This document shows positions 5,342-48,000 of a DNA stretch of 64,000 nt, one piece after another. The stretch comes from Owenia fusiformis (taxonomy: Eukaryota; Annelida; Polychaeta; Sabellida; Oweniidae): positions 8,982,349 through 9,046,348 of the forward strand of contig CAIIXF020000010.1 in assembly GCA_903813345.2 (NCBI GenBank). The letters run 5' to 3'. Each line of letters opens with the position of its first letter. The stretch's first letter is position 1. Made by a program: the position numbers and the translations under genes. The notes below the pieces were generated by a model, which was not told the DNA's origin, did not search any database, and worked only from the letters and a program-made list of their open reading frames with translations.

Positions 5342-5552
5342 TAATTAGCCTATACCTGAGAAACAACTTAATTTGGAAGTGTCATAATGCATGCATACTT
5401 GATAGATGTATATATCCAATCCAAATTAATGCAGACACAGGACAACACAACAGAATATGAAGTCTTGTTTTAGTATAGTTGTAATTGTAAATACATATTT
5501 TTGTATGATATTTTGTAAATACATGAAGATGAATTTGATTTGTAGCTAATGA

Positions 5553-5558
5553 AATAAA
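5553..5558 (+). promoter_or_regulatory. Candidate polyadenylation signal (AATAAA)
   Basis: AATAAA about 210 bp after the stop at 5341, in an AT-rich 3' end. It is the best candidate for the end of the plus-strand gene, just before the LINE begins at about 5770. Confidence 0.5.
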
Positions 5559-5769
5559 ATATAATATCAGTGTGAAAATGTAAACTTGTTTTTATTAGCA
5601 TTTTATCCATATGTTAGCATGTAATTAGGAGAGGCAGGTGCTATTGGTCCCTGAATTGATAATGCCATATATTTGAACTTCCTATTTTTAACCCATCCTG
5701 GTAGAATAACATTATCTTAATGAGCCCGACATTGTTAGAAGTCCAGTAATGAAAGAAACATGTTGCTGT

Positions 5770-8800: not shown

Positions 8801-9117
8801 GAATTTTTTTTATTTTACAATATGTTATGGTCCTCTTATACTCTATAAATATGACTTGTACACGTCCCCTCATCCTTCAAGATCGGTCCTTCACTGCTTT
8901 CATAGCAGATCATGTAATGCAATGAATTACTCTTGGGCCAAGCATGACTTCTTGGTGAAGAGCTGTATCTCTCACTAACTCGCAAGATCGCACTAGGCTA
9001 TTTGGCTTCAAATGTAACCTGCTTTAACTCTCACCAGAAAAAAACTGACCTAGATCCTGTTTGTGCCTATCATACATAAGGTGACATAAAAACTATTCTT
9101 TAACTAAAGATATAATT
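8801..9117. other. Spacer with no recognised feature
   Basis: About 300 bp between the LINE and a dispersed repeat. I see no open frame, structural RNA or repeat in it. Confidence 0.4.
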
Positions 9118-9260
9118 TTATGTCACCACCTTTGGTGGGGACATAAGTCTATTGTTATAGTCTCCAACACTTTTATGGGCTGTGGTTGGTGTCGGTGGTC
9201 GGTGACTGCAACAAATAGCAGGTGACGACATTTTGTATGTTAATACCGTGTATGTTAGTA
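9118..9260 (+). repeat. Dispersed repeat, copy 2
   Basis: It shares TTATGTCACCACC, GTTATAGTCTCCAACAC and a tail with GACATTTTGTATGTTAAT with 3705-4075. This copy has only one unit. Confidence 0.6.
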
Positions 9261-9286
9261 CCTTTGAATACTAAAATAACTGCCAA

Positions 9287-9292
9287 TTTATT
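9287..9292 (-). promoter_or_regulatory. Candidate polyadenylation signal of the sulfotransferase gene
   Basis: AATAAA on the minus strand lies only 17 bp after the stop codon at 9310-9312. If used, the 3' UTR would be very short. Confidence 0.3.
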
Positions 9293-9309
9293 GAGACATT
9301 TTGAGCAAA

Positions 9310-9871
9310 TTATGTGATATTTTCTATTCTTTCGAAATACAGCTTCTTCGCATATTTGTACAACTCAATATCAAGGTGATTTAGTTGTTTGATTCTCTCA
9401 AATTGTGCAGGTGATATTTTATTTGTTGCCATTTGAGCATTACTAGTTTCTTTCTGAGAAAAATAATCTGTAAAATTCACTGCGAACTTAAATTCAAAAA
9501 GACGTTGATTCTGTTCCTGAAACTCTGTTAATCCAAAATATGCCATATCCTTCAAGTTATTTTTTGCACTTTCAAGCATTATTCTTTCTCTTTCTGGTTT
9601 TGATATTGTGCTAGTATTATAGCAGTCAACCAATGATAGATTGGCTAGCATTCTAGTCTGTCTGTTTATAGCAAGGTTGTGTGGACAATTTATGAAATCA
9701 TCAAGAGGTACATGTCTCCAGCTTGTATTAAAACACATTGGTAATTGTTTAGCTGTGACTTTGCGATGATTACACTTGGGTTGTTTCTCCCAAGTAGCAC
9801 CGCGTTGGACATGCTTCCATTCACTCATATATCTCTGAATAGGCTCTCTTAGCATCGTCATGTATAAATAA
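9310..9871 (-). CDS. HS6ST: HS6ST exon 3 (terminal)
   Basis: The acceptor TTTTTCCTTTCAG lies just before 9871 on the minus strand and the stop codon is at 9310-9312. Starting with one base of a split Ser codon, it encodes YLYMTMLREPIQRYMSEW, the Cys-containing NCPHNLAINRQTRMLANLS segment and LESAKNNLKDMAYFGLTEFQ. All are hallmarks of the family's C-terminal half. Confidence 0.95.
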
Positions 9872-12800
9872 CTGAAAGGAAAAATATAGTACACTTCAGT
9901 AGAATCTCTTGGTACAAAGGTATCAGGAGATTGCTTATTACCCTAAAATGTGAAACACTGAACACCATCGTAAATAAAGTGACAGTTGTATGATCTTATC
10001 CGTTTCACTGGCGGATCTGGGGGGGGGGGGTCAGGGGCCCGGGCCTCCCCCCTTGGGTGGGCCCAGAAAAAAAAACTGGGCCCGAAAAAAGCCTCAAGGC
10101 CCCAAAAAGTGGGCCTTTTTGGTCATAAATGGGCCTTGTAAGGCCTTACTTTTTAATTTTAGGCCAAATTTTGAAGAAAATGGGCCTCAAAATTTGAGCC
10201 CACTTTTTGGTTTTAGGGGCCCAAAATTTTTTCCTCATACCAGAAGTTTTGCCCCCCCCCCCTTGTTGGTTCCCAGATCCGCCCCCGCGTTTAACTACCA
10301 AGACGGGAGTATAAATGGTTTTATCCGTTTAGCTAAATAAGTATGTTCAATAAGTACTGATAAAAATGCTGAAACTTTTTAATTTTTCATATTTCTGACT
10401 ACTTTTTCTACTGCACATTGTTGTGTATTGTACCAATATACTGTGGGAGTTACAGGAATGTACGCCAACAGGAAGGTGGTACTGGGTTAAGCCTAAGGTG
10501 GTTCGTGGTGGTTCAGGTCTGCACAAAAAATCAAAATGACCTACTTAAAATGTGAACATTTTCATACATAATATTATTTTAGAACAATTTTGACAGCTTG
10601 TAAATATAATACTGAGACGAAGATACATGTACTTTGGCATGATTGATTCAAGGGTTGGTCGCACTCAACATGTTATAATAATTTAGAAATGACATTGATA
10701 TTTGACAAGTTGGTGTGCAAACAGTTGACTGAGGAGCAATATTAAGTTATTAATAGAGAGATTTCGCACATAAGTGAAAGTACAACTTATACGTATACGT
10801 ATAGTTTAAAGGGTCATGTCGAACTATTATATTTACTAAAATCAATTTTAAATTGTACTTAAAGGGACCCAACACCATGGTCACATGATCAGTCGTGTGG
10901 AGGTAAGCTCCCAGTTGAAATAAAATCACTGTCCTCCTTTGGTTTCTGTGAAAAGTAGCTAATACCCTCATGTATTGGTCAGTTTGTGTGTCACACGACT
11001 AATCCCCACCATATGCTTCATTCAACATATTTTATGCTATTGAGCTGCATATATAAACAGTACTTTGCAACTAAGGTCATACAGTATACTTACCCCTTGC
11101 AAATTGTAATTTATTGAATTCACAGTAAACCCATCAATTTTTAAGAAAACAAAGAATATTGTTCTCATGGATCTATTATTTATGTTAGACTAACTATGAA
11201 AATATAAATATGAAATAATATGTTAGCTTGAAGTCATATATAAGATGAAAATATATGTTCATGCATTTGCATTTTTCCAAAGGGAATATTCCCATGTAAG
11301 TAAATACAGGTGCAATATATAATTTATATGTATATCTATGTCATCTGTCTATACATGCGCGTATAGCCTAGTGTTACATGTGAACAAGATGGTTCTGGAA
11401 AGAAATGAGCGTGGCAGATTTGCTAAAATGCCACATACACCACAAAAGCAAGACCAATTTGAAAGTAAGTTCATTATTCTCAAGGGTACACTTCAAGTGA
11501 AAGCTACATTGCTACAGGGTGGCCTATCATTCTGAGACAAATGTATTATCCAACGATTGTGATTTTCGAAGCTAAAATATGATATCTTGAGCAGATGGAA
11601 ATACATTCCCATGAGATATGTATATAGTCAAAAGTGATAACTATTTATTGAGTGTAATGAAATGTATCCTTCGCTAACTGCTTTTGTTTGAGATAATTAT
11701 CATGAAATGTTTTTAAATCAATTTTTATGTGTGTCATTGATCCTAATCCACCCTGTAGTCTGGTGTTTGTAGAGCATTGCGACTCGTACAACTTATTCTC
11801 ACAAATATCAAACCTCATTTACTAATTAATTTTTTGTGTGAATATGAAGAGTCCAAGTATTGCTTTTTTATGTTTATTGTATAGCTATATTTAGCCTTGA
11901 TATCCATGATTTTTTAAAACAAAATCTCACCGTTAGATTTCGGGCTATTCATGTTTACTCATTTGTCTAATTGGAAAACAATGCAAATCTCATTTTTTCA
12001 AAGGAAAAAAATTGAAATTCTAAGACGGTGAAAAATCATTAAAAAATACACAGATTCAGAATCCGGCAAGCATTTTCCCTTATTCCTCTCCGTTAAGAAG
12101 TTTTGCAAGGTGTTGGATTCCTTTAATGGAACATAACTATTCCCGTTATAGAAAAGCTCCATCAACTAGAGACTGTGAATGCACTGTCATCTGCACGTGT
12201 AGATTATGCACATTATAATTAAATGCTTGCTTCTGTGTCCTTGTTGTTGTAGAGTATTATAAACACGATCCTTTAAAGTGAATCATGATTCTTTAAAGTG
12301 AGTCATTACATAAACAAGTTGATTATTTCAATGTTTTCATGATCAGTATAAGTTCAGTGAACTTACAAAATGGTATATTTACGTAGATGATAACGTATAC
12401 AGTTGGATCTCCGTATAAAGATTTGCCTACATGTGTGTGGAACAATTGACCGCAAGCATTTTTTGAAATTAATTGGCTGAGTGGGAACAGTATCCAATCA
12501 AATACTTTAACCATCAATTTGAAACACCAATCAAACCAGTAGGTTCTAGCAATTCCTGAAAACGACCCATTCAGTAGCTCAACATATGACATACAGGGTG
12601 TTTCATAACGAGCATCTCCAAAAGTCAATTTGAGAAGAGATGGTTCTATAACATGTACTATATATGAGCCTATTTTATTCTAGACAAACACATTTGGATC
12701 AACTAAACATGCTACAATTCAAGAAAGTACAAATGGCATCCCTTTGACCTGTATTTATTACAGTCCGAGAAGATCTTTCCTAACGAAAAGCCCACATTAT

Positions 12801-15800: not shown

Positions 15801-18800
15801 CTGAATTATTCCACCGTTTGGTAAGTCATGTGAGATATAACTTCAAATACAAAGAGTAAAGATATATAAAACATCCATGACTTGATATTAAGAGGTAACA
15901 TGCGACAAATAAACATTACATTAAGTCATTAGTCAAGTAGTCGGGCCCCCGGGTCAGATTTCGAAACGGGATTTTTCTCGCCGATGGATGGACCCAAATA
16001 ATGCAATGAAATAGGGAGCATATTCGCATATCTGCGACCATTCATCTTGTAAGGTGCTACTTTCTATCTTCCTTTTAAATCAGATAAAACACACTGACAA
16101 TCGATAATCTTTGCACAGTTAACGATCAAACATTGGGCTTCTTCATACTTCTGCTTTCTGATGAGCCACCTAATCTCTTCACTCACTCGATTTTTATACA
16201 TGTTCCCGGGCCTGTGGGAACGATCATTCTGAACAGTGCGTTAGTGCGCTAGCGCGTTAGCGCGTAGCGCGTGTTTTCATTATAACCGAAAATGCACGTC
16301 CTAATTATGATTAGTTGGCGTCGTATACATATTTTTACTAACATGACTTATTACCAACGAGGCGTGGAACAAAATAGATGCTAGTAACCTATACAAATAG
16401 ATGCTTTGAACAAAATGGAAGATTAAACGTTTGTAATACACTTTAGTGTCTGGTGAAGTTCAGTAATATCATTATGACTTTTATTTACATCAATCAATTG
16501 CTTGTATATTATTGGTAACTAAAGGAATACATTTATGTATAACATTTTTTTACATCAACATCATGATGAAGTAAGTAAGATGAAACCATATATTATTAGG
16601 TGAACTTTGACTTAGTTCCTCTTCTCCAATCTGGCCATTATGGCTACCATAGCAAAAGTGCAATTCTACAAAACAACCACTGCCTGCCAGACTCAATATC
16701 CGTTCCTTAATAGTACATAATTGGTAATTAAATATTTTCAATTTCCATTTTATATTAGTAGTATAATATATAGTATAGGCTAAGTGAAGTCTGTCAACTG
16801 GGATAATGATTTTATTTCCCCCTTTATCTTAAACCTTTAGTAAGATAGCATGCGCGAATTCAACTGACGGCTGACGAGTTAACCAATTTTTATGGCCAAC
16901 TCATTTAAATATAAAATCGAATAGTGACACATCGTTTTCATATTTAGATGCGTTGGTCATAAGAGTAAGTTCAGTTGAATTCGCGAATGCTACCTCAGAG
17001 TGCCTTTTTGTGTCATTGCTACAGCATGAAATAATGAACCTTTTGATGAGCTGTAAATGTTACTCTCCATGTTCAATGTAGAGAGCATGGCAAACTAATG
17101 AATGAACTTTTTGATGAGCTGGCTCACTGTAAATAATACTCTCTATGTTCAATGCAGAGAGGTAAACTGATGAATGAACTATTCGATGAGTTTGCCCACT
17201 GTAAATGTTACTCTCCATATTCAATGCAGAGAGGTAAACTGATGAATGAACTATTTGATGAGCTTGCACACTGTAATAATACTCTCTATGTTCAATGCAG
17301 AGAGGTAAACTGATGAATGAACTATTCGATGAGTTTGCCCACTGTAAATGTTACTCTCCATATTCAATGCAGAGAGGTAAACTGATGAATGAACTATTTG
17401 ATGAGCTTGCACACTGTAAATAATACTCTCTATGTTCAATGCAGAGAGGTAAACTGATGAATGAACTATTTGATGAGCTTGCGCACTGTAAATGTTACTC
17501 TCCATATTCAATGCAGAGAGGTAAACTGATGAATGAACTATTTGATGAGCTTGCACACTGTAAATAATACTCTCTATGTTCAATGCAGAGAGGTAAACTG
17601 ATGAATGAACTATTTGATGAGCTTGCGCACTGTAAATGTTACTCTCCATATTCAATGCAGAGAGGTAAACTGATGAATGAACTATTCGATGAGTTTGCCC
17701 ACTGTAAATGTTACTCTCCATATTCAATGCAGAGAGGTAAACTGATGAATGAACTATTTGATGAGCTTGCACACTGTAAATAATACTCTCTATGTTCAAT
17801 GCAGAGAGGTAAACTGATGAATGAACTATTTGATGAGCTTGCGCACTGTAAATGTTACTCTCCATATTCAATGCAGAGAGGTAAACTGATGAATGAACTA
17901 TTTGATGAGCTTGCACACTGTAAATAATACTCTCTATGTTCAATGCAGAGAGGTAAACTGATGAATGAACTATTTGATGAGCTTGCACACTGTAAATAAT
18001 ACTCTCTATGTTCAATGCAGAGAGGTAAACTGATGAATGAACTATTTGATGAGCTTGCGCACTGTAAATGTTACTCTCCATATTCATTGCAGAGAGGTAA
18101 ACTGATGAATGAACTATTTGATGAGCTTGCACACTGTAATAATACTCTCTATGTTCAATGCAGAGAGGTAAACTGATGAATGAACTATTCGATGAGTTTG
18201 CCCACTGTAAATGTTACTCTCCATATTCAATGCAGAGAGGTAAACTGATGAATGAACTATTTGATGAGCTTGCACACTGTAAATAATACTCTCTATGTTC
18301 AATGCAGAGAGGTAAACTGATGAATGAACTATTTGATGAGCTTGCGCACTGTAAATGTTACTCTCCATATTCAATGCAGAGAGGTAAACTGATGAATGAA
18401 CTATTTGATGAGCTTGCACACTGTAAATAATACTCTCTATGTTCAATGCAGAGAGGTAAACTGATGAATGAACTATTTGATGAGCTTGCGCACTGTAAAT
18501 GTTACTCTCCATATTCAATGCAGAGAGGTAAACTGATGAATGAACTATTTGATGAGCTGGCTCACTGTAAATAATACTCTCTATGTTCAATGCAGAGAGG
18601 TAAACTGATGAATGAACTATTCGATGAGTTTGCCCACTGTAAATGTTACTCTCCATATTCAATGCAGAGAGGTAAACTGATGAATGAACTATTTGATGAG
18701 CTTGCACACTGTAAATAATACTCTCTATGTTCAATGCAGAGAGGTAAACTGATGAATGAACTATTCGATGAGTTTGCCCACTGTAAATGTTACTCTCCAT

Positions 18801-21721
18801 ATTCAATGCAGAGAGGTAAACTGATGAATGAACTATTTGATGAGCTTGCACACTGTAAATAATACTCTCTATGTTCAATGCAGAGAGGTAAACTGATGAA
18901 TGAACTATTTGATGAGCTTGCGCACTGTAAATGTTACTCTCCATATTCAATGCAGAGAGGTAAACTGATGAATGAACTATTTGATGAGCTTGCACACTGT
19001 AAATAATACTCTCTATGTTCAATGCAGAGAGGTAAACTGATGAATGAACTATTTGATGAGCTTGCGCACTGTAAATGTTACTCTCCATATTCAATGCAGA
19101 GAGGTAAACTGATGAATGAACTATTCGATGAGTTTGCCCACTGTAAATGTTACTCTCCATATTCAATGCAGAGAGGTAAACTGATGAATGAACTATTTGA
19201 TGAGCTTGCACACTGTAAATAATACTCTCTATGTTCAATGCAGAGAGGTAAACTGATGAATGAACTATTTGATGAGCTTGCGCACTGTAAATGTTACTCT
19301 CCATATTCAATGCAGAGAGGTAAACTGATGAATGAACTATTTGATGAGCTTGCACACTGTAAATAATACTCTCTATGTTCAATGCAGAGAGGTAAACTGA
19401 TGAATGAACTATTTGATGAGCTTGCACACTGTAAATAATACTCTCTATGTTCAATGCAGAGAGGTAAACTGATGAATGAACTATTTGATGAGCTTGCGCA
19501 CTGTAAATGTTACTCTCCATATTCATTGCAGAGAGGTAAACTGATGAATGAACTATTTGATGAGCTTGCACACTGTAATAATACTCTCTATGTTCAATGC
19601 AGAGAGGTAAACTGATGAATGAACTATTTGATGAGCTTGCGCACTGTAAATGTTACTCTCCATATTCAATGCAGAGAGGTAAACTGATGAATGAACTATT
19701 TGATGAGCTGGCACACTGTAAATGTTACTCTCTATGTTCAATGCAGAGAGGTAAACTGATGAATGAACTATTTGATGAGCTTGCACACTGTAAATGTTTC
19801 TCTCCATATTCAATGCAGAGAGGTAAACTGATGAATGAACTATTTGATGAGCTGGCACACTGTAAATGTTACTCTCCATTTTCAATGTAGAGAGCATGGC
19901 AAACTAATGAATGAACTTTTTGATGAGCTGGCTCACTGTAAATCTTACTCTCCATATTCAATGCAGAGAGGTAAACTGATGAATGAACTATTTGATGAGC
20001 TGGCACACTGTAAATGTTACTCTCTATGTTCAATGCAGAGAGGTAAACTGATGAATGAACTATTTGATGAGCTTGCACACTGTAAATGTTACTCTCCATA
20101 TTCAATGCAGAGAGGTAAACTGATGAATGAACTATTTGATGAGCTGGCTGACTGAAATGTTACTCTCCGTGTTTAATGTAGAGAGCATGGCAAACTAATG
20201 AATGAACTTTTTGATGAGCTGGCACACTGTAAATGTTACTCTCCATGTTCAATGTACAGAGCATGGCAAACTAATGAATGAACTTTTTGATGAGGTGGCA
20301 CACTGTGAATGTTACTCTCCATGTTCAATGTACAGAGCATGGCAAACTAATGAATGAACTTTTTGATGAGCTGGCACACTGTAAATGTTACTCTCCATGT
20401 TCAATGTAGAGAGCATGGCAAACTAATGAATGAACTATTTGATGAGCTGCCTTACTGTAAATGTTACTCTCCATGTTCAATGTAGAGAGCATGGCAAACT
20501 AATGAATGAACTCTTTGATGAGCTGGCTCACTATAAATGTTACTCTCCATGTTCAGTGTAGAGAGCATGGTAATATAATGACAGTAGTGAATCATGAGTC
20601 TGTGATTTTCTATCCTTCGTAACACCTCGGCCATATTTGATCTACGGCAACCGCACGACAACTGTAGCTTCCCAAAATCGAGAGGAATATGCAGCATAAA
20701 ATATAGGGATAATAATGATGCATATATAATATATAGTATATATATTATATGTCGAATGTGATGCATTCTGATACTCATAGCATCTTTCTGTTTCTGAGAA
20801 GAAATGACATGTCATAGTTTATCATGATGAGTAGCAGATGTAGATTTTGGATATCGATTTTGTGAAGCTACGTCGACCGCCGTACGACCGCCGTAGAGCA
20901 ATTGTGACAAAGGCTTAAATCATAAGTTTTTTAAGTCTATTTATTAATCGATTTTGATTAGTCTAATCATTGATCTTTTCCTTGGAATGACAACCCATCT
21001 TGAACATTTTTATTTCATTTCTAAAATGAGTTTCAGTACTTCCAAGGCAGCCCTAAAGAGTGACAGACGACAATTGTAGATATAATTCTTGAATTCAAAT
21101 CGCATCCTTGGTATATATGGGTAATAACTAGGTGAATATTTCAAATGAAAATTTAACCAAAAATCAAATTGGCTAATTCGTCAATTCAATTAGGTTACAG
21201 TAATGAAATGTGATAAAAAAGTAAATTCAAATGCATAAAATCTGATTTTTGGGATTGGAATTTGGATTTCAAGAAAATAGTCTGTCACTGACTGATTTGA
21301 ACAAAAAAGAAAATAATAAAGAATAGTGAACACAACATCATATGTTTTTAATCTTGATGTAATACTCATCAGTTCATTAAACGTGTTGTTTTGAATATTG
21401 TATTGTTTTGTATTGAACTCTCCCACTCTTATTCGTTTTCTTTTGATTAACAGGATAAAAACATGTTATTAATACTAAAACGTGCACTATTACATACTTT
21501 ATGTAGTTTCCTCTCTTTAGTGGTGAGCCACGTACTGTAATATTCCTAATACACGGTGTAATAGTGTCAGTAATTTTTCTTTTTCCTGTTTGTCGTGTCT
21601 TCCATTCATGATGCAAAAAGTCATAATTTGAAACAAAAATCAAGGCTACCAAGAGTATGACAATGGCCATATTTATCTTAAAACATCTGATGTTTGGTTT
21701 ACAAAAAAATCTGCATGCCAT
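9310..21721 (-). CDS. HS6ST: Heparan-sulfate 6-O-sulfotransferase (complete three-exon model, 359 aa)
   Basis: Heparan-sulfate 6-O-sulfotransferases move sulfate from PAPS to the 6-O position of glucosamine in heparan sulfate, in the Golgi lumen, and so tune growth-factor binding. Exons on the minus strand are 21498-21721, 13863-14156 and 9310-9871, total 1080 nt. Exon 1 gives a type II signal anchor (MAIVILLVALIFV). Exon 2 carries the PAPS 5'-phosphosulfate loop HIQKTGGSTF (about residues 91-100) and RFSTGWVCGVHADWTEL. Exon 3 has the 3'-phosphate motif LREPIQRYMSEW (180-191), HVQRGATW and FGLTEFQ. Both junctions are phase 2 and read through conserved family sequence. The protein is shorter than the vertebrate HS6STs I recall (about 400-500 aa), mostly in stem and tail. 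Introns of 7.3 and 4.0 kb hold many repeats. Which vertebrate paralogue is closest cannot be told. Confidence 0.93.
10009..10287. mobile_element. Foldback MITE with GGCGGATC-type ends and 8-bp target duplication
   Basis: The terminal inverted repeats are TGGCGGATCTGGGGGG and CCCAGATCCGCCCCCG. Flanks CGTTTCAC (10001-10008) and CGTTTAAC (10288-10295) make an 8-bp duplication with one mismatch, as in hAT-type insertions. The interior repeats GGGCC-rich words (GGGCCTTTTTGG, AAAATGGGCC), an internal near-palindrome. The Gly/Pro-rich open frame through it is not a gene. It lies in HS6ST intron 2. Confidence 0.75.
11388..11464 (+). other. Possible orphan first exon
   Basis: An ATG frame reads MVLERNERGRFAKMPHTPQK and on to Glu, then a strong GTAAGT donor at 11465. 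It looks like a short coding first exon, inside the 2.55-kb inverted-end element and antisense to HS6ST. I find no following exon, so it may be chance or a relic of the element's own gene. Confidence 0.2.
12592..12813. mobile_element. Mariner-like MITE (TACAGGGTGTTTCATAA ends)
   Basis: TACAGGGTGTTTCATAACGA at the left is mirrored by TTATGAAACACCTTGTA at the right, with TA at both borders. About 220 bp, no coding content. It is nested in the larger element at 10439-12993. Confidence 0.7.
13019..13290. repeat. Dispersed MITE-like repeat, copy 1 (3' end lost)
   Basis: It shares about 230 bp with 22785-23022: GAATAGCCTGAC, AAAGTCAGATACCGT, TTTCATGGGA and CACAATATAGCGTCTTC. The second copy ends in the inverted GTCAGGCTATTCC, which is degenerate here. 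Confidence 0.7.
13431..13822. mobile_element. Foldback element with internal ~185-bp direct duplication
   Basis: The ends GGACGATTCCCGGTTTGGAG and CTCCAAACCGGCGAGAATCG followed by TCC are inverted. Inside, two direct half-units (about 13440-13625 and 13626-13800) share ATATTACCCAAATTAAA and GAAGCAGGGATAA. Its right end is 41 bp from the HS6ST exon at 13863. Confidence 0.75.
13863..14156 (-). CDS. HS6ST: HS6ST exon 2 (PAPS-binding)
   Basis: The acceptor TTTTCTTACAG lies just before 14156 and donor GTAACT after 13863. The 294 nt encode HFDPNENKVIVFLHIQKTGG, then the Cys-rich KCKCKLKAKSCRC and SGRFSTGWVCGVHADWTEL. The PAPS loop Lys-Thr-Gly-Gly is intact. Phase 2 at both ends matches exons 1 and 3. 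Confidence 0.95.
14170..14235. repeat. GC-rich inverted repeat, left member
   Basis: ATAATGAAAACACGCGCTAC followed by alternating GCGC-type words recurs inverted at 16230-16285. Homology continues on the inner side (CCCAGGGACATGTATAA here, matched inverted at 16200-16215). The start lies only 14 bp upstream of HS6ST exon 2, inside the region expected for its branch point. Confidence 0.6.
14236..15325. other. HS6ST intron 1 sequence without a recognised gene
   Basis: No coding frame or structural RNA seen. CCAGGGGGGTTC and GACCCCCCCCCTGGG near 15210-15270 form a weak inverted pair, probably another decayed foldback element. Confidence 0.35.
15326..15554. mobile_element. Small foldback element, copy 2, interrupted by a hAT-like MITE
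   Basis: Ends TACCCCCATAAA and TTTATGGGGATA match the copy at 907-1086. Its homology to that copy is split at CCCCCACAAC, which appears on both sides of the inserted element at 15371-15509. Confidence 0.7.
15371..15509. mobile_element. Nested hAT-like MITE (CAGGCCCGTAGCCAG ends)
   Basis: It begins CAGGCCCGTAGCCAG and ends CTGGCTACGGGC plus AAG, ends I recall from hAT-type elements of marine invertebrates. CCCCCACAAC flanks it on both sides (15361-15370 and 15510-15519) while the homologous site at about 945 has it once, so the insertion and its duplication are visible directly. Confidence 0.85.
16230..16285. repeat. GC-rich inverted repeat, right member
   Basis: Alternating GCGTTAGTGCGCTAGCGCG words ending in GTGTTTTCATTATAACC, the inverted partner of 14170-14235. 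Together they bracket about 2.1 kb of intron. They may be two copies of one small element or the ends of one larger element. Confidence 0.6.
16286..16843. other. HS6ST intron 1 sequence without a recognised feature
   Basis: AT-rich. No convincing open frame, repeat or RNA gene was noticed. Confidence 0.35.
16844..16995. mobile_element. Foldback MITE
   Basis: GCATGCGCGAATTCAACTGA on the left is mirrored by TCAGTTGAATTCGCGAATGC on the right, with about 100 bp between. It ends some 50 bp before the satellite array. Confidence 0.7.
17045..20565. repeat. 72-bp satellite array, about 49 units, with higher-order structure
   Basis: Each 72-bp unit contains AATGCAGAGAGGTAAACTGA and GAACTATTTGATGAGC. 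Two main variants alternate, one with AAATGTTACTCTCCATATTC and one with AAATAATACTCTCTATGTTC. A 71-bp variant (GTAATAAT) marks positions 17273, 18136 and 19575, spaced 863 and 1439 bp (12 and 20 units less one base). The stretch before each mark repeats almost exactly, so blocks have been copied as higher-order units. Units at both edges are more diverged (for example GAGCATGGCAAACTAATGAA after 19890), as expected when an array is homogenised from within. Because 72 is a multiple of three, long frames run open on both strands (24-residue repeats); I do not regard them as genes. It lies in HS6ST intron 1. Confidence 0.95.
20627..20912. mobile_element. MITE family with CTACGGC...GTAGCTTC ends, copy 1
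   Basis: The left end has GATCTACGGCAACCGCACGA and GTAGCTTCCCAAAATCGA; the right end has ATCGATTTTGTGAAGCTACG and CGTACGACCGCCGTAGAGC. A related shorter copy lies at 33195-33355 in the receptor gene. It is in HS6ST intron 1. Confidence 0.7.
20913..21497. other. HS6ST intron 1, 5' part
   Basis: AT-rich intronic sequence between the MITE and exon 1. No repeat or RNA gene recognised. Confidence 0.35.
21498..21721 (-). CDS. HS6ST: HS6ST exon 1 (signal anchor)
   Basis: The ATG at 21719-21721 opens a short basic cytoplasmic tail, a hydrophobic anchor (INMAIVILLVALIFVSNY) and a polar stem. A GTATGT donor follows 21498. The phase-2 end fits exon 2 exactly, giving KRLHFDPNENKVIVFLHIQK across the junction, like the Leu-Arg-Phe-Asp run before the PAPS loop in known HS6STs. 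Another Met in the anchor (INMAI) is less likely to be the start. Membership rests on type II topology, phase and position, so it is a little less certain than exons 2 and 3. Confidence 0.8.
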
Positions 21722-33098: not shown

Positions 33099-36000
33099 CT
33101 GAAAAAGAGAATATTTTGAGGTGTACTTTGAAACGTACGTTCTACTACTTATTTATACTCGATCAACATATTTTTCATCAGGATGTGGTAATTAGGCCTC
33201 ATTTACATTTTTTCTACGGCGGCCGTAGCTTCACAAAATCGATATAGAAAGTCTACAGCGTACTGCTCGTCCTTTTATTTTATGCGGCGCATTTCTCTCG
33301 AATTTGGGAAGTTACGACCGCTGTACGGTTTGCGTAGAGTAAATATGATTGAGAATTGGTACCATGTTCTAAATGATTTTTTTATTAGGAAGGGATCGGA
33401 GAAAAAAATCTGAACCGCCATCTTTCTTGTGACTTATTCCAATTTAGACTTTAACAACAAAATGCACTATTACTCCTGCACAATTAGTACAATGATGTAG
33501 TGGAAATGGTGAACAGCAAGCAAATGTTGTGAAAATCTTAATTATAGTTTGCTTACATTTATATCATTATACTTTGCACTGAGTACCTTTACTTAAGGTC
33601 TAAACTGATATTACTTCAAATAACCTCATACATCCTTTTACATGACCAAAGATACTACTTACTAATCAATGGGATAAACTCAGACGTCTCGGGTAGCTTT
33701 TCGCTGATCGTCAGAGTAAACACAGAGAAAGCTAAGAGAATAGTGATCCCCAATGTAATCTTCTCACCCGACTCCGGAGGAAGCCAGAATTCCAACAGCG
33801 TCAGCCCTGACATTAACAGACAAGGCAGGACGACGTTGTACATGTAATACAAGGTCTTTCTCCGAATTACAATATGAAATGTTACATCCGGAAATGGTTC
33901 TGGACAGCATCCGTATTTGACAACATTCCTCTCAACTCTGATCTCGTTAAGCTGCCATTCTCCGTTCTCGACATAATTCTGAAGGTCTACCTGGTCCGAA
34001 CGGTTAACAATATCCACCTGGAAGCCGTTGTATGTCCATGAACCAAACTTAAGTTTGCAAACCTGCTCATCAAATGGAAAGTACGTGACATCGATTTTAC
34101 ACGTACTCCTGATTTTTGAGGGAATAGGCCAAAAGACAGAGCCATCATTCTTCACCATTGCAAGTGCTGGCATATAGTCATCCATCCTCTCAGCAGCACT
34201 ACAAGAATAAAATTATACATGTAGAGACAAGGATGGAATACCACTATGAGAATACATAGCAAAGCAAAATTGATAAAAGATAACTAGAATATTCACCTAA
34301 ATACTGGGTGTCCAAAAAGCGGGGACGAAGAAAAAGTTGATAATCTACCTATTATCTACAGTACTTTACAAAACATATTCAAAGTGGGCACCTCTCCGCT
34401 CTATTTTTAAATGAAAGGTACCAGTGTACTGCAGTTTTTGACTCAATGAGCAGCTTTTCATTAAACTTTCACGACAAAATTCACATTTGAGGAACTAAAT
34501 AATTCAGAAATTTCAAGACAGAATATACTAGTATGCAAGATTAACCAAGTTAATCAACTTTTCATCGGTCCTGTTTTTTGACAGCCTGTATGTAACTAAC
34601 AGGAGCTAAGGGAAAACCAGATTATTATAAAGCAAAGCAATAAATAAAAACAATCCGCCAATATGTAACCTCCTTCCCCTTGAGATGATAGTACCAATCC
34701 TTGCTTAGGAATACCAACATGGTCCATCGGCCTGGGTATGCTCTACGATAGTATTGGTTGTCAGGTTGGTTGTACTAGAACCATTTGAAGAATTTTTAAT
34801 ATTGTGAATGTTTAATAATGATGCACAAACAATAATTGATAATTAACGCCGTCGCCCACTTACTTATTATATAAGACGATATCAGGGAGCCAGATTTTGT
34901 GACATGGTACATTGATTGTCTGTAGACCACCATAATCATCTTTGTTCCACATCAATAACTCATCCCTCCAGCCCTATATTGTAAAAATAATATGACTTCA
35001 AGGATATGTATGTTGACTGTGACTAGAGACTGTGTATGCTCAAGGCTTAAAGTAACACATAACCAAAAGTCTTCGTACATCAACAAATGACGCATCCGCA
35101 ATACAACGGAACAAAATTTGGGTAAGGAAAAGGGTACATACTAATGCACTAACCGTCACTAGGGTTTTTGGATTCACATAGTTATACCAATACAGATTCA
35201 TTAATAACAGTTTGTAAGGTATCTTCTTATATTTATCAATGTTAATTGAACAACCATCGTATAAGTCAACCTAATCATACCATCGGGGTAATGACTTACT
35301 AATTTCAAAGTGATAGGTAGAAAGTAGTTCCGGAAATAAAGGTATATTCTTGATTCTTGAGGTAATTCGATAAAAATAAAAATGTACCTGATCCAACCAA
35401 GTGTGTGCAACAAGGACTTGATTCTTTTCTTCCTACAAACAGTAAATCAGCTATCGTTAATGGTTTAAGGCATGTAAAATAGTAATTGGAACGTCCAAAA
35501 CGAGGTTTCAAAGACAAGATAACACTTCATTTAATATAACAAGCCCATCATGTCATATCGCCCTAAAATCAGTTTCCCTGTGAATGTTTTTGTAGATGGT
35601 GAATCCAAATCATTTGAAATATCAGTTACGGTAATTCCCTTCAATGTTATTTCTAAAGAACGCTTTAAATGAAGTTTTATTTTGGAATGCTTTTATGTTT
35701 CAGTAAAAACACATTTTAGATTTCACCACTGCATATTGGCAGGATAATCCATATGGAAATATAATGTTAGGTTCTCTTATTTCATCTAGTTTTCCTTTAC
35801 TTAAGTTAAGTGATCCCCTACCTAACTGTACTATACACTTGGTTGATTGATGTGCCTACTTTCAGATTGCAAAAATCGATTTTAAAGAGCTTAATGTTTA
35901 GTTCTAAGAATGATTAATATCTTTGGGTAGGGGTATGTAGATTCTGTATTTGGACGATCTTGTTAAATCCCTCAAGAGAGTTGTTTTTCAATTATCAATA

Positions 36001-39000
36001 GCAGTCGTAATTACTCGGGGTGGAAGGTGTGAGAATTGTGCAAAAAATGACTTTGTGAGCTGGATGGAGTTTCTCTGTATTTTTCATTCTATTAGGGTTT
36101 CCTGTACAAGGGATTTCGCCTGCGAAGCATATAACTCTTGCGAACATATCTAAATATTGGTCCGAGGAAGACATACCTTGAATTTTTTAGAAAAAAATTG
36201 GCTAAAAATGGAAACTACAAAAAGTCAAAATGTTCAACTCAAACAAAACTCTAGCTATTTAATATTAACACTATGTATTATTTAATGTTTTTCAGATGTT
36301 TAAGGACCTTCATTAGTGTACTAGTGTCTAGAAATAAGATAATTAAGGACAAAATTTGGCATTTTTGATCATTTTCGCTTTCAGCAGTAACATATAGTTC
36401 TTTATATCTTGAGTTTAATGTTGACTGGTTGTTGCAATTTTGATTAAAGCTGTGCTTGTACATGTCTTCTTCCATTTAAGATACAAAAAATGTATATTGG
36501 ACCACCAATGGGCATATTAGAGCTTTCAGATCTCCCCTACCCCATTTATTATGAAAAATTACTGAAACATATGAAAATATAAAATAACTTGAATTTATAA
36601 ACTTTAACAATGTTGTAGCTATTCTATATCAATATTATGTATTATTTAATGTTTTTCAGATATTTCAGAACCTTTATTGGTATACTAGTGCCTAGAAATG
36701 AGACATTTAAGGACAAAACTTGGCATTTTTGAAAATCATTTTAGCTTTCAGCAGTAACATATAGTTCCTCATATATTGAGTTTTATGCTTACTGGTTGTT
36801 GCAATTGTAAAAAAATTTGTTTTTGTAGATGTCTTCTTCCATTTAAGGTATAGAAAATGTATAGTGGACCACCAATGGTCATATTAGAGCTTTCAGATCT
36901 CCCCTACCCCATTTATCATGAAAAATTAAAGAAAAATATGAAAATATAAAATAACTTGAAACTATAAACTTTAATAAAGTTGTAGCTATTCTATATCAAT
37001 ATTATGTGTTATTTAATGTTTTTAAGATATTTCAGAACCTTTATTGGTAAACTAGTGCCTAGAAATGAGACATTTAAGGACAAAACATGGCTTTTTTGAC
37101 CATTTTCGCTTTCAGCAATACCATATAGGTCCTTATATCTTGAGTTTAATGCTGACTGGTTGGTGCATTCTTAGTCAAATTTGTTCTTGTAGATGTCTTC
37201 TTTCATTTAAGATATAAAAAATGTATAGTGGATGACCAATGTTCATAGTAGAGCTTTCAGGTCTCCCCTACCCCATTTATTAGGAAAAATGACCAGAAAT
37301 ATTAATAAAAAGAAAAATAACTTCAAATTATGAACTTTTACAAAGTTGTACATATTCTATGTCAATACTATGTATTATTTAATCTTTTTCTGATGTTTCA
37401 GGACCATCATTAGTATTCTAATGCCTAGAAATGAGATATTTAAGGACAAAACTTGGCTTTTTTTTCATTTTCGCTTTCAGCAATAACGTATATAGTATAG
37501 GTCCATATATCTTGAGTTTTATGCTGACTGGTTGGTGCATTCTTGGTCAAATCTGTTCTTGTACATGTCTTCTTCCATTTAGGATATAGAAAATGTATAT
37601 TGGACAACCAATGTTGATATTATAGCTTTCATGTCTCCCCTGCCCTATTTATGTAAATGAAAAAGTAATTTCAAATCATCAACTTTAACAAAATTGTAGC
37701 TATTCTCTATCAATACTATGTATTATTTAATGTAACCTTCATTTGATTACATGTGTCTAAAATTTGGCATTTTTAGCATTCTGCATTTAGCAGTAGCATA
37801 TCATTTTCCACAATTATAATTCTTTGATGATAGATTCATATATGTTTTTTATTGAATCTGTCTTCTCTGATTTTTTATTTTTTTATTTTTTTTTTATTTA
37901 TTAAAATCATATAAACATATATACATATAAGTGATAATGACACCCTAGTGGGTGTATGTCTTATCACAAGCTAAAATATTTAAAAATGGCATATTGTTAG
38001 TTACATTTATTATTGATGTTACAAAGTGTCTCAAAGTATAAATTATGTAAGCCAAACTGGGAAACAAATAAAAATAAAAATGATGTACATTATAAAAGAT
38101 GTAATAAAACATTTTAATGATGTAGAATAGTTAAATGGAAAAAGGTGCATCTGTTAAAAATTTGTACAGGGTACTAATCATAGAGACTAATTACATGTCT
38201 TTTGAAGGCTCGCTTAAAAATAAAAATGGTTTTTGAATTTTTGATAACATCTGGAGTTGAATTCCAGATTATTCCCCCTTGAGTTTTAATACTTCGTTTG
38301 CCATAGTTGGTTAACTTAAAGAAAATGTATGTAAGACAATGAATGTTTTTATTAGAGGTCTAAGATCTGCCCTCCAACAAATGAGAAAACCAACACAAAT
38401 GTTATTATTGCATGTTAATATTCTTAAACTTTTCAAGTTTAAGATAGTTTAGCATATTTATTAGCACACTAAAATCAAAAATGACACATAAATGGGCAAA
38501 ATGACCAATGTTTCACTTTCAGCAATAGTTGTTTATATTTTTAGTTGAATGGTGATTAGTTGACATATTTTAGATCATATATATTCAACTTGTGTCTTGT
38601 TATCTTCAAAGCATGGAAAATGTGTTTTAAACACAAATATACATATTAGAGATAAAATTACTACACTACTATATTTTTAAAAGATTACTCAAAAATAGCA
38701 TAGTGCGAAATAATTTTGTAATTTCACAGTTTACTCTCATATGAATCAAAGGATATGTCTTTATATAGACATGATTGTTCACAACTCTCGAACTTAATCC
38801 AGCAACAGCCTGATTTTTCAAATCTCCCTGGTTCTATGTTAGAGCTGCATTTAAGTCATTTTAAAGGTAACTGGTCAACTGGTACCCAAGACAAGTCGTA
38901 CCCAAGCATATGTTTTGTTTTGAATCAAGTGTTGGACTGGGGATGTGTAAAGATATACATATTATAACTGTAACATACTGTTCAGAAGTTTGAAGAATTT

Positions 39001-42000
39001 TCAGAAGAAATTGGTATAATTTTGTAACATTTTGAGCTTTGAGTGTCAATTTATTTTGACTATTATTTTATATTGGATGTTCGAGTGAAGAGATATATGT
39101 TTATTCGACACATACATAATCATTTTTTAAATATTGTATGTTTATGAGTGTTTGGAACAAGTGTCAGATTTAATTCATCTTGGAAGATGGTATTATTATA
39201 AATGTATTGATTCATCAAATCTTGGGCCTAATTTCTTATTAAACAGATAATCTATTTGTCTAGGATTTCATATTATCAGAAGTCATATTCATGAAATTTA
39301 GCAATAAAATATTTTGAATAATATAATAATAGTATACAAGTAATAATATAGTATAATATTAATATCAAATATTATTTTGGTACTTATTCATACATGATAT
39401 ACTATTACACTTAGTATGCATGTGCATAATCCAATTTAGTTCCAATTGGAAAAAAATTAACAGATTAAACTTCCTTTAAACTTTCTCAAAATGCTCAAAT
39501 TAATTGTTTGATTCATTTGTAGAAAAGTCACTGTTGTAATTATATTTATTTATATATATGTTTGACAGAAAATGTTGTGAACAAGCACTCCAAGCACTTG
39601 TTTTATTAGTAAAAAAGTGATTCAAGTTAAATCAATATGCTTTACTTAATCCATTGAGAAAAAATGTCTTCTAAATTCAAAAAAATATTGAGGCTTATTT
39701 GAGTCACATTATAACATGAAAACATAATTATACAAACTCAATTTGTTTTCCTAATATGCACCCATAATACTGGAAATAACTTGGGTACCAGTTATCTTGG
39801 GTACGACTTGTCTTGGGTACCAGTTGTCTTGGGTACGACTTGTCTTGGGTACCAGTTGACTAGGAAGCATTTTAAAGGTCTAAGTTGCTCATGTCACCAC
39901 AAGCTATTCAGATATGTAAGATCTCTAAATAATTTTTATAGTTCTGAGAAACTCATCCTTAAATATTGTCCAACGATGTGCACTATGTTGTTTATTGCCA
40001 CATGGACAAGTAGCAAAACACCCTTGACTAGAAACTTTGTTTAGCAATTTTCGCTGCCTTTTGCCATTTTACATTTGCGAATTGCCAAGGACATATTATG
40101 TTTCTTGTGTTGCTACGAAGGTCTGTTTGTGAGTACTGGTACAAGACACCCATCTTTGATATATCTTCAAATAGGTAATGCACTTTGAGATTCATATAGT
40201 AATTTAGAATGCTACCTTGAAGGACATAAGAAACTTTAAGAGCTCTTTTTAACTCTCATCCTTCTTTGCAAGCAACATTCTGTATCATCAGACTGAATAC
40301 AAATTCTCTCAACATTGAACTCCTTTGTCTTGTCTGCAGCACTGTAGTAGACATGGGCCATAAGGAGAGTGTCAACTTCTTCATGATCAGTATTTGATAG
40401 ATAAGTTGCAATTATCAGTTTTGCAAAGTTCAATAGCAGCTCTGCCATAAGTGAAATTCATCCCATTTTAGAGATACAGTAACATTGCTTCACAAACCAA
40501 AGACAGCTTACCATTTTGTAATCCTTTCCAAAATCATCTTGTTGGCTGTTCTTCATTTCACAATGTTTACATTTACCAAAATATCCCCAAGCCCAATATC
40601 CATCATGAACTTCCTAATTACACCACCCTTAGGTGTAATATGGAAATCACCAAGCCTTTGACAACATTGCATTTGATATGAGGGAATTCAACCAATATGG
40701 CTTGATCACTGGTTATAATTATCACAGAACTATACCCCATTATTTTTAAATATATTCCAAGTATTGTACTATACATTGCATAGATTCATGAGCAGTTTGC
40801 AACATATCATAACCAGAAAAGCCCAATGGACAAAGATAGAGAATACCCGCCCCATTTGCAACTCAACTTTAAATGTCTAATTTTTAGACTTGTATACTCA
40901 TGAAGTTCCTGACTCATCTGAAAAATATCAAATAATACATAGTATTGATCTAGAATAGCGACAACTTTGTTAAAGTCTATACTTTGAAATTGTTTGGTTT
41001 TTATATTTCTGGCTTTTTTTTCAAAATAAATGGGGTAGGGGAGACATGTAAGCTCTAATATAATGACAGGCTTTCCAATATTTTTAAATACCTTAAATCA
41101 AAGTAGGCAGGCAAAAGAACAGATTTGATCAAGAATCCATCAACCAATCAGCATAAAACTCAAGATATAAGGAACTATATGTTATTGCTAACAGTGGAAA
41201 TGATGAAAAATGCCAAATTTTGTTCTTAAATGTCTAATTTCTCTACACTAGAATACTAATGAAGGTCCTGAAACATTAATTATAGCAATCAATAACACAT
41301 AAAGAATAGTTACATCTTTGTTAAAGTTTATACTGGTAGTTTGAAGTTATTTTTTATATTTTCCAGTCATCTTCCCTAATAAATGGGGTAGGGGAGAACT
41401 GAAAGCTCTAATATGAACATTGTTTGTCTACTATACATTTTCAGTACCTTAAATGGAATAAGACATGTACAAGAACAGATTTAATCCAAAATGTATCAAC
41501 CAGTCAGCATAAAACTCAAGATATGAGGATCTATATATTACTGCTGAAAGCAGCATTGATTAAAAAATGCCAAGTTTTGCCCTTAAATGTCTCATTTCTA
41601 GCCACTTGAATACCAATAAAAGTTCTGAAAAATCTTTAAAATATTAAATAACACATAATATTGATAATAGAATAGCTACAACTTTATGAAAGTCTATAAC
41701 TTCAAGTAATTTTATTTTTTCATATTTCTCGTTTATTTTCCATAATTGATGGGGTAGGGGAGATCTGAAAGCTCTAATATGAACATTGTTTGTCTACTAT
41801 ACATTTTCTATACCTTAAATGGAAGAAAACATGCACAAGAACAGATTTGATTGAAAATGCAACAATAAGACAGCATAAAACTCAAGATATGAGGAACTAT
41901 ATATTACTGCTGAAAGCGAAAATGATAAAAAAAATGCCAAGTTTTGTCCTTAAATGTCTCATTTCTAGCCACTTGTATACCGCTATAGGTTCTGAAATAT

Positions 42001-45000
42001 CTTAAAAACATTAAATAACACATAATATTGACATAGAATAGCTACAACTTTGTTAAAGTTTATAATTTCAAGTTATTTAGTTTTTCATATTTTTCGGTAA
42101 TTTTCCATAATAAATGGGGTAGGGGAGATCTGAAAGCTCTCATACGAACATTGGTTGTCCACTATACATTTTCTATACCTTAAATGGAAGAACATATGTA
42201 CAAGCACAGATTTAATCAAAAATGCAACAACCAGTCAGCATTAAACTCGAGATATAAGGAACTATATGTTAATGCTGAAAGCGAAAATGATTAAAAATGC
42301 CAAATTTTGTCCTTAAATGTCACATTTCTAGACACAAGTATACTAATGAAGGTCTTGAAACATCTGAGAAACCTTACATAACACAAAATATTGATATAGA
42401 ATAGCTACAACTTTGTTTGAGTTGAACATTTTGACTTCTTGTAGTTTCCATTTTTAGCCATTTTTTCTAAAAAATTCAAGGTATGTCTTCTTCGGACCAG
42501 TATTTAGATATGTTCGCAAGAGTTATATGCTTCGCAGGCGAAATCTTTAATGCAGGACACCCTAATAGAATAAAAAATACACAGAAATTCCATCCAGCTC
42601 ATAAAGTCATTTTTTCCTTAACGGAGCCTCTTAGAAAATTTTCCACCCCGAGTAAATAGTTTATGTAAACTAAACAATGAAAAGGGACATATTTTCCCTC
42701 GACGTGATAACTTAATCAATAGACAGCTTCTTTTAAGATAAGTGTCAAGGATCAGTACAAAAAGTTCTTGTCATACTTGAGTTAATGGGGTTTATTAATG
42801 AAATCATGTCGAAATTACATTTAACCTTCCGAACCACTCAGCGCATGTACTAGTGAATGATATCAGGAAGTTTGTCCCTATTTTGTATTCCTGTTAGCAC
42901 CTTCAGCCTGATCCAATAAATCGCTGTCTTTACCGTCTCATTACACAGTGATATAAAACCTGTTCCAACGAACCGAGCTGTTGACATGCCACCTTGTGCA
43001 ACTAATGGACTATTCTGTACAGATTTGTTACAAAACATGAACCAAATGTGAAACACACAATTTCGAGTGAATACTTCAGAGACCTATACCTACAAAAATG
43101 TAGGTCGCAGAATGTTCTAATTCTTTTATAATAGATTTATACATATTTGGAATATCAATCAACGCTCAGCTAATAATCTAGGTATATTTTTGCACCCTTT
43201 GTGTGCAAATCTAAAAGATGGCATGAATTCTTTGTACCTGAAAATAACACTCCAATTTGGGAAGCCATTAAGATTTTTGAACAATGGGAAACTTCCTTCA
43301 ACGCTCATGTAATAAGTCTGTTTAGTGCTTGTTTATAAAGAAGGCCTAGGTTAATACTGACTTGATAGACCTCCCTCAGATGTATAGTGAGTTAATAAGA
43401 GATATTAATTCTGTGTACACAAGACATGGAAAATATGAATCTTCTTCAATTAACATATTTTTCAGTAATGGAATCTGTATGTTCAACCTCAGGGTGATTG
43501 ATAAGGAACAAGAAAAATGCTCTCATTTTGTTATAAATTATTCAATGCTCTTTCCATTGTTACAAAGAAGCCATCACACGGGTTCTGGCAAGTCTAGACC
43601 TCATAATACCATGAGCATTAAGCTCCGATCCGACGACGGGTACACTGACATAAATAGCTCCTTGCATTAGCCATAATATTTCAAAGTAAATGCTGGTACG
43701 TATTAAAGCGGGTAAGTTTGGGAGATTTTAATGGAACACTTCATTAAATACATGTCGTATCCCATAGCTGCATTTCTCATTATTATGTGTAAGCATTGTC
43801 TAGAAAAGACAATGCTTATAATCAGAAAAATTGCTTTCAAATGTGAAACATGTATTTTCTCTTTTAGTCATTTAATTATTTGATTTCTAATCGCATTGTT
43901 CTATCCGAAAAACAAATCACCTGCCTCTGCAAATACATCCTCCTAAGCAGGTATCCAGAATTCGTACCCCTAAAGAAAGAATATTCTGGATTTTGAAGCC
44001 CTGTGATCGGAGCATGCTGCAAATAATACTTTTATTTTCTTATTGAAACAAAATGTTGAAGTCCCAAACATCCATATTTTTCATTCTTCGTCAAATTGTA
44101 CATTTTTAAACACTTCTCTGATGGTTTCTCTAGTGTTCTAGAAACACTTTGGAAAAAACATTTGCAATACCTCGAACAAATCGTTCTTCATTTGATATCA
44201 TTCACTGACTGGATATAGTTTATGATGGGCAGAGTACTACTTCGTAAGAGGGCATATCTTCTGAATATAGTCACTTTTATTGGAATTTAAAACGCAAAGG
44301 CGAGTTTAGATAATGATAAATATCCACTAAATTAACTCGTTAGATTGCACTTCTGTGGGTGATAAACTAGAATTGTATGTGTTTACAGTAAAATGAGCAG
44401 TAGAATATACTGGCATTTGATAATTAATACCAGTTAATTGGCTTTTTCAATGCAATGACCGCAAGTGATGTATTGAAAACCAAAGGGGATTGGATCCCAG
44501 AGTGCAATTCTGATATTCTGCCATATATGGGCATCATTGCCTCAGAATTCAAACTGTCGCCATTTCTCACTTCAAAATCGAGTGTTATGGTCTTATTAAT
44601 TAACCAAAAAATTCAAACACACAAGAAGTGATCAAGATATTAGTTAAAATCTTTTAATTGCTGAATGTGAATTTATAGCCAGATAAATGTCAGACAATAA
44701 TGACGCTAGCTTTGTTGTATTGTGGCCAATCCTCTTTGGAAAACGAGAAATAACACTTTGCCACTTAACTCATGGAACATTTCGATGTTAAAATATAGAA
44801 TTGTATTTCAACTGTATATAAAACTAAGTATATACAAATGTTCATGGCAGTTAGGCCTACACTTCAGTCCCGCTTACATACCCTATGTATAGACTGTGCT
44901 ATATGGAAACAACAGGTTCGGATTCATGTACGCGCGGTGTACAGTTGAACTGTCATTTTTGAATTTGAATTCGTGATATTGCACAAACTTAGGTATGTTG

Positions 45001-48000
45001 GGTACTCAGTTATATTCATAAATGTGAAGAAGATACCTACTAAAACGGAAATTGTTCCAATAGGTTTTTGCTTTATTCTGTAGGGACGTAATATTGTCGC
45101 TTTTATACACCATTCACAGCCATTCCGTATTGGTAATCGAGATTACCTATCGATGAAAATCGGTTTTGTATTTTGAAAGTCATAAACCTGATAAAAATAG
45201 GAAATATTTATTGGATATGTGCTACCCCTAAACAATCGGTTCGGATAAGTCAGGCTGGTAGCACATCTTCATACTTTTATTGTTTAATTTCATAAATATA
45301 ACATAGATTTTTGCACCATGGCGTGACGGCCTTTTGAATAACGCATCACATTTTGTCACGCTTGACAATCACACTGTAAGCCAATCACAGTTAATAGGGT
45401 TGTCAAAGGAATTGTTGCCCATTAGAATAATTTGATCATTTCCTCTTTTTCATATAGCGATCCCATAAGTAATATTGGGGAATTCTAATTTAATTATCAC
45501 CATCTCAGGAACGCACGTCAAAATTCATGAAGTATAAGTTCTAAAGTAAATAGATAATTAGAAAATAACTTCACTTATACTTAGAATTCTCGATTCCAGG
45601 CTTTTGATTTGATTGAGTTTTTGATATTTGAAAGGAAGGTCAATTGGGTTTTCTTATCAAAATAAGACATTTACTGGACAACTCAACTCCTAGACAACTC
45701 ACCCCAGATAACTCAATCCCTGGATGACTCAACCTGGACAACTCACCCCCTGGAGATCATCTCCTAGCCAAATCAATCCCTGGACAAAATCACACACATT
45801 GCAAAATTAATTTATTACACAAAGATGCGATGCATTGGTAGTCTTGAGACTCTAAATGTATTTCTAAATTCCTAACTTCAGTGTTGTTGTTATCTAACTT
45901 TAGTGTTATGTGGTATGAATGAATTGTCCGGGGGTTGAATTGTGAAGGGGTTGAGTTGTCTAGTGGTTAATGTAAAGACACAAAGATGTTCAACGAACAT
46001 AATATTCATCGTCCTATTTCTGTCATTGGATTCGAAGCTGTTGCAGAATGTTCAGTTAGGCACTTTACAACAAGGCAATGGGGCACGATTTAATGAACAA
46101 AATGCTCGGAGACGAGGGTAGCAAATCACAAATTGACAGCTTGAAATTCTTTCTTGCCAAAGAAAATCACCAATCTCAAAAACATGAAAATATGGCACGA
46201 ATGGCAAAATTTGACATAAAGATATGTAGGTTCAGCTCAACAAATATACTTAGTACTCCATTTGATTCAAATTGAAAGATTTGAAAAGGAAATCGTTACT
46301 TTTACAGATCAACGGGTTATTATTATCATCAGAAATTCGTAATTGTGACAATATACCAACAATTTGAATCAAAATGTTGTCGAACTTTGATGAATTTGCG
46401 GAACTTATTGGTAAAACAAAAAATCATAGCTTTAGATTTGGAATTTTAATGACTTATTAAAGACAACCCACTAAATTGCCTTTGATGATTAGGTCTTGGT
46501 GGCATCTTTATACAGTCATACTATATACATAATTATCGTAAGAAAGATCACTTCATCAGAATGTTCAGAGTAATTGTATTAAAATTGGCCTTAACAGTTC
46601 GTTGTTATCTTTCTTTCCAAGGTTTAAATAGAGAGGTCCATCTACTCCCTTTGGGTTAGGGATGCACCTTTAATCTAGCCTTAAACGGTCAAAATCCAGC
46701 AACCCAATCTATATAGCATTAAATATTTGACCATAACAGCTACATTTGGGCTATTTACATGGTGAGCCAAAAAGGTAACCCAAATAAATCTTAACAACCC
46801 AGTCATCCAGTATAGGGTTTTACCATATTTTGCACAATTGAACCTTGTTTAATGTTATTTCATTCTACCAAGATAATATGTATATTAACAATACAACCCT
46901 AGAAGCATCAGGGAGTTAAAACAAGAGATAAGAAGGAAAATGAGAGCAATTCCACTAGATATTTGGTGGCCTGTAATCAGCAAACGTCACTCAATGCGTT
47001 AAAGTTTGTCTCCAAAGACAAGTCAAGCCTCAAAAGACAATTCTGAGCATGTTTTGTAAAATTGACATAAAATCGTTAACCATTTGAAATAGATCAATGG
47101 GACTCTGTTGAATGAAAGAACATTTCACAAGGTTCAATTGTGCCAAATATGATTTTAACCCCATATGGTATGACAGGGTTATTAAGATGTGTCTGGGTTA
47201 CCTTTTTTGGCTCATCCTGTACATCTTTTAAAACAGCATCCCTATTAGTGTTACGCTGCGCGCCGAGTCTAGTTGTAAACAAAAGGCGAAGCTCTCTTTT
47301 AAATTAAGAAACGAAGTCGAACTAATTAATTTGAAAGAGAGCTCGAGAGAGCTCCCGGATAGAGCTCCACCTTAAGTTTACAACTAGACTCGGCGCGCAG
47401 CAAAGGGTACCATCCCATAGTGTATATTTTTCTTCCATTGAGAGGAAAGTGCACTATAGTATACTTACCAGATCAAAGATCTGTGACATTGTAAGGCCAA
47501 TATTGACTTCTACAGCATTGCTAGAATTTTTTATTGGTCGAGCTGACTTATCGTGGTATCTGAAGCATCAATCAGACAATCTAAATATTTGTTCAAGTGG
47601 ATAGCAATTTACTGGACACGTGGGAAGTTCCAAATTATATGTGTTGCAATTATCAAGTTGGTTGAATTACTCTCGAGGGGAGATTACGTTTACTTGGATG
47701 GACAAGATGAGAAATGGTCCATGACAGTTTTTTGATGGTTTAAGACAAATCAATAATAGAGCTGTGAATGAAAATCATTCGTTTGTAGGTTATTTAAAAG
47801 ACATTATTCTATGCATTTGGATCTTTATTGCTCAAACACATGCGTATATGTTTATATTACAATGCAGACTGTTTTTCCCTGTTGAGAATGTTGGTTTAGT
47901 TTACAAAAGTTTGATCAAGTTAATATGAAGGAAAGTTTACTCACTAAAAGCAAATTATATAAATCAAGAATTTAGGTCAGTATTTGATATTAATAATAAG

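Follow-up and report, generated by a model that had tools for sequence, protein, structure and literature searches.

What is the large inverted structure that occupies over half of a ~12-kb nicotinic-receptor intron in the annelid Owenia fusiformis, and how did it come to be there? It lies in a stretch of 64,000 nucleotides of contig CAIIXF020000010.1 (GCA_903813345.2), referred to below as the window. An initial annotation had described it as a foldback with tandem units in both arms inside a nicotinic acetylcholine receptor (nAChR) intron. With a ligand-domain consensus as the tblastn query, minus-strand nicotinic-receptor exons were detected at 47582-47469 (E 1.3e-5) and 34970-34851 (E 8.5e-14). 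The first of these (47469..47582) borders the host intron on its 5′ side; the exon on its 3′ side (35388..35432, minus strand) gave E 0.11 alone but is colinear. The best PDB match of the coding block 34212-33655 is nAChR alpha-7 and, judged by similarity, this match and the flanking exons bear out the proposed intron location. Elsewhere the window carries a tandem array of 72-bp units (17051-20565; 48.5 copies, 91% matches by TRF) with long repetitive minus-strand frames and, at 5889-8809 on the minus strand, two long frames of 405 and 579 aa split by a break, which resemble the reverse transcriptase and endonuclease of a non-LTR retrotransposon.

Ends, arms and repeated units of the element

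The element extends from 36012 to 42654 of the window (6,643 bp, assigned to neither strand), as delimited by its tips, the target-site duplication and comparison with other copies. Both ends consist of the 14-bp sequence TACTCGGGGTGGAA, which starts at 36012 on the left (36012..36025, plus strand) and, as an inverted copy, at 42654 on the right (42641..42654, minus strand), and they are flanked by AAT target-site duplications at 36009..36011 and 42655..42657. A 6.6-kb foldback had been drawn from 36011 to 42655; the foldback itself is confirmed by the inverted alignment of the arms, and its ends are corrected to those given here, as the extra outer T belongs, on the left, to the AAT duplication and, on the right, reflects an A that stands there by chance. 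The perfect terminal inverted repeat comprises the first 14 bp only. The next ~17-25 bp inside the tip are unlike between the two ends, and the long inverted repeat starts after them.

The arms, ~1.7 kb long, align as inverted repeats (36008-37731 against 42658-40927) with 86.8% identity over 1,688 aligned columns, as expected from the mirrored arrangement described before; the outermost ~1 kb reaches about 86-92%, whereas most of the inner part lies at 80-85%. The four head-to-tail units of ~366 bp per arm that had been annotated were recovered both by TRF (left array: period 367, 36252-37652, 3.8 copies, score 1880; right array: period 366, 40869-42417, 4.3 copies, score 1761) and by a unit HMM, which resolves each arm into four strong units and one partial outer unit. 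By this HMM the left array (36210..37771, plus strand) consists of the partial unit 36210-36367 followed by units at 36368, 36735, 37100 and 37465, and the right array (40868..42467, minus strand) of the partial unit 42467-42293 followed by units from 42291, 41926, 41559 and 41204. Degenerate inner units of the left array (38301..38716, plus strand), recognised at 38301-38389 (E 1e-6) and 38511-38716 (E 1.7e-10), adjoin an insertion that, of the copies compared, only the window copy carries. Outside the units lie the left cap (36012..36209, plus strand) and the right cap (42468..42654, minus strand), which are ~90% alike. Homology between caps and units was considered and rejected, the scores of 21 and 22 obtained for the caps against unit L1 only being reached by 124 and 105 of 300 shuffles. 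A C-rich block of the unit, TCTCCCCTACCC, is weakly conserved (p 0.016-0.042 by permutation, with windows of three sizes), and we do not claim it as a binding site. In RNA the two arms could pair, and such a duplex had been suggested as a possible ADAR target; in silico the pairing comes to -1,996 kcal/mol, but its longest perfect runs measure only 45, 39 and 35 nt.

A dispersed family of foldback copies

The genome containing the window (498 Mb, 525 contigs) holds 208 exact occurrences of the 14-bp tip (105 + 103), against none in the same 498 Mb for the pattern read backwards as a control. Among 100 listed tips, from contigs C1-C6, 86 form 43 convergent pairs with a median spacing of 5,926 bp (range 446-11,646) and 14 are single; no two neighbours closer than 15 kb are divergent or on the same strand. 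Searches with the left and right caps gave 239 and 240 candidates, of which 40 each were scored and matched at 97-100% and 98-100% identity, respectively. Twenty-six of the 40 left-cap matches are convergent with one of the 40 scored right-cap matches, 24 of them at a distance of 0.8-11.6 kb; the other two pairs span 30 and 53 kb. The widest (G000:C457:122519-175479) is either a single copy that has taken up a very large insertion or a pair of separate copies. A second copy elsewhere in the genome, on which the first reading had been made to depend, is thus available many times over. The tip pattern also occurs in 18 stretches of viral contigs, with one match each, which we read as chance; the phage collection gave no match.

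For closer comparison the 20 best left-cap matches after the window, of 39 scored, were read. Both tips are present in 15 copies including that of the window (one right tip carries a mismatch), and in 16 after the L039 copy had been extended. An identical 3-bp target duplication flanks 15 of these 16, and in 12 of the 15 it is composed of A and T only; two short copies, of 446 and 794 bp, retain the tips and the duplication. The tips, the duplications and the dispersed, near-identical copies together show transposition, and the earlier reading of the structure as a foldback-like transposon whose arms contain tandem units is supported. The right tip could not be recognised in five copies (L042, L049, L054, L057 and L058). 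In L052 (G000:C8:10892600-10902550) both tips are flanked by mismatched triplets (AAC/CAG), perhaps through recombination between copies. The L039 copy is interrupted by ~5.6 kb with open frames of 1170 and 560 aa, LINE-like by eye. A 913-aa frame near L042 was considered as a captured gene and rejected, as it lies beyond the end of the truncated copy, with no right tip within the 17.7 kb read; the frame (L042 with L063, G000:C11:18375262-18393000) looks, by eye, rich in leucine-rich repeats and like a host receptor-like gene.

The family is young and its copies are near-identical. In aligned blocks above 93% identity, copies match the window element at 93.9-99.2%, most of them at 96-98.7%, and L045 is a divergent relative (~92% in parts). 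Across 12 copies, the set leaving out L045 and two miniature copies, mean identity over the outer 700 bp is 99.2% between left arms and 98.6% between right arms, whereas left and right arms are 89.7% identical within a copy and 89.6% between copies (six compared). Arm-to-arm gene conversion in the outer 700 bp is ruled out by the equality of the last two values, and the arms therefore diverged before the family spread, with no ongoing homogenisation. The foldback itself is old: by the time the family expanded, its arms already differed by ~10% close to the tips and by more further in. Units group mainly with the units at the same position in other copies (one L045 unit clusters elsewhere), and in three-unit copies it is the third unit that is absent, their third clustering with the fourth of the others. 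The number of strong left units varies among the 13 long copies: there are four in 4 of these copies, three in another 8 and two in the remaining one. Four strong right units are present in 12 of the 13, L045 being rearranged.

Contents of the loop

The insertion at 37872..38310 (minus strand), absent from the other copies compared, has a T-rich end and contains an open frame, presumably a LINE 3′ fragment; L046 provides the empty site. A nested element, which has inverted ends of its own with GGTACCCAAG motifs, occupies 38869..39867, without assigned strand, between 12-bp direct repeats, CATTTTAAAGGT. Since 12 of the 15 copies with two tips that were examined contain both repeats, this nested element predates the spread of the family. 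A further feature, at 40239..40457 on the minus strand, is the only recognisable gene remnant in the element, a broken member of a nuclease-like protein family marked by the motifs EEADT, PDTD and TGCD. It was identified with a profile HMM built from 120 real proteins, for which it ranks top among 2,806 window segments (E 1.7e-6; the next segment has E 3.1) and scores 25.4 bits, against a maximum of 10.1 bits in shuffled windows.

Of the 17 copies in which the remnant is present, 15 have it broken at one common place, showing that the gene was already broken before the copies spread. As this sole gene remnant is broken at a shared place, the family is taken to be non-autonomous and was probably mobilised in trans. 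Among the genome matches to the remnant (150 scored of 246 candidates) no open frame longer than 200 aa was found, and no autonomous partner came to light.

The family model has a predicted fold nearest to FEN1, XRN and Exo1, a weak resemblance to the FEN/XPG/XRN nucleases. The protein family (P0001-P0120 in the model) is widespread in metagenomic and genomic contigs and has no Pfam model: in 50 members scanned there was no match to Pfam XPG, only scattered weak ones, the best being YgjP-like (0.0036, 4 members). One Pfam scan of the remnant gave nothing up to E 1, and another gave a C4_MG1 match at E 0.1, which is taken as chance. Queried with the remnant itself, the protein database yielded 0 of 215 and 0 of 9 candidates reaching E 1; the sequence profile of the remnant family had no match in the PDB.

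Affiliation of the family and what it implies

We regard the element as a young non-autonomous cut-and-paste DNA transposon with foldback architecture, and consider it reasonably probable that its home is the Academ superfamily (AcademX), in which it is placed as a candidate and not as a proven member. Academ is the best home because AcademX duplications are given as 3 or 4 bp and Academ lineages are distinguished by a helicase or a nuclease (PMC10045372); the 3-bp duplications found here (15 of 16) fall within that rule, and the nuclease-like remnant recalls a nuclease-marked lineage. The present family differs in its foldback arms with tandem units and in the transposase missing from its copies, no Academ transposase having been seen in those read. 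No description of Academ together with foldback appeared among the literature matches listed. The Academ nuclease is of XPG type, and no literature match joining Academ and XPG was found.

On this view, a transposase encoded at another site would bind the 14-bp tips together with subterminal sequence close by, cut the element out and reinsert it through a 3-bp staggered cut, for the most part at triplets rich in A+T; the repeated units may, by analogy with Galileo, act as accessory extra binding sites. The narrower proposal, that the foldback architecture arose in the AcademX lineage, which carries a nuclease of a family for which Pfam has no model, appears rather doubtful. As speculation, the long, internally repeated and hairpin-capable arms could be functionally coupled to a flap-type nuclease, and a FEN-like enzyme might then find its substrates in the folded ends of the excised element or in flaps or gaps at the target.

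A less probable account, still to be taken seriously, retains the non-autonomous transposon and credits its movement to another transposase generating 3-bp duplications (EnSpm/CACTA-like, Zator or undescribed), with the nuclease remnant as a captured or nested passenger. It would suit a loop that already contains another nested element and whose visible remnant is nuclease-like only, with no transposase. PIF/Harbinger elements share the 3-bp duplication but target the triplet TWA, which was found in only 3 of the 15 duplications here. The remnant and the 3-bp duplications, moreover, jointly fit one known lineage (PMC10045372), and we favour AcademX for the family.

A relationship to Foldback, Galileo or Tetris (Mutator or P superfamily), the first two of which had been named at first for comparison, is highly improbable. 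The architectural side of the comparison stands, as the family has long inverted arms, within which direct repeats of a few hundred bp recur, and dispersed mobile copies with target duplications, but both the gene remnant and the length of the duplications speak for another affiliation. Galileo and the P superfamily have a THAP transposase and 7-8-bp duplications, and Mutator and P elements make longer duplications than 3 bp; neither the 7-8 bp of Galileo/P nor the 8-10 bp of Tetris/Mutator was found here, where 15 of 16 are 3 bp. THAP was not found in Pfam scans of the pieces of the (short) remnant. According to PMC4079207, the Mutator superfamily takes in most foldback elements, Galileo being among the exceptions, and Tetris of Drosophila virilis has inverted repeats of up to 1,735 bp in which an outer flanking domain is followed by a variable number of tandem units and then by an inner domain; it lacks coding capacity and exists in several rearranged forms. 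The family described here shares this plan, the lack of coding capacity and the occurrence of rearranged forms; it differs in having ~366-bp units and 3-bp duplications, against ~220 bp and 8-10 bp in Tetris, whose flanking domain has 37 bp in common with the unit (PMC4079207), whereas our caps do not match unit L1 above shuffles. In Galileo, too, the inverted repeats are long and internally repeated, those of Galileo-G measuring 1.2 kb and containing four direct repeats, and transposase-binding sites in the Galileo repeats have been demonstrated experimentally (PMC3688188).

Harder still to credit is that selection keeps the inverted arms because they form a hairpin in the RNA of the receptor gene before splicing, with a role in ADAR or splicing control: the predicted arm pairing is strong and the position intronic, but the same element stands at many unrelated sites, so that the structure comes from the transposon, and the analysed data contain no sign of host use. 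A locally duplicated, immobile palindrome or an assembly artefact, conceivable with a single assembly and an earlier worry now largely answered, has a negligible chance, since many contigs carry the same structure, each time between different flanks and with duplications of its own, and arms 10-20% different are no assembly echo.

A family of foldbacks that combines 3-bp duplications with a nuclease-like remnant would represent a further independent origin of this architecture, which asks why long, internally repeated arms keep evolving. Natural variation in the number of strong left units, from two to four, makes the role of the units in mobility testable. Ectopic recombination may occur between the roughly one hundred homologous foldbacks in the genome and, in the host gene, the young insertion places a 1.7-kb imperfect inverted repeat in the receptor pre-mRNA.
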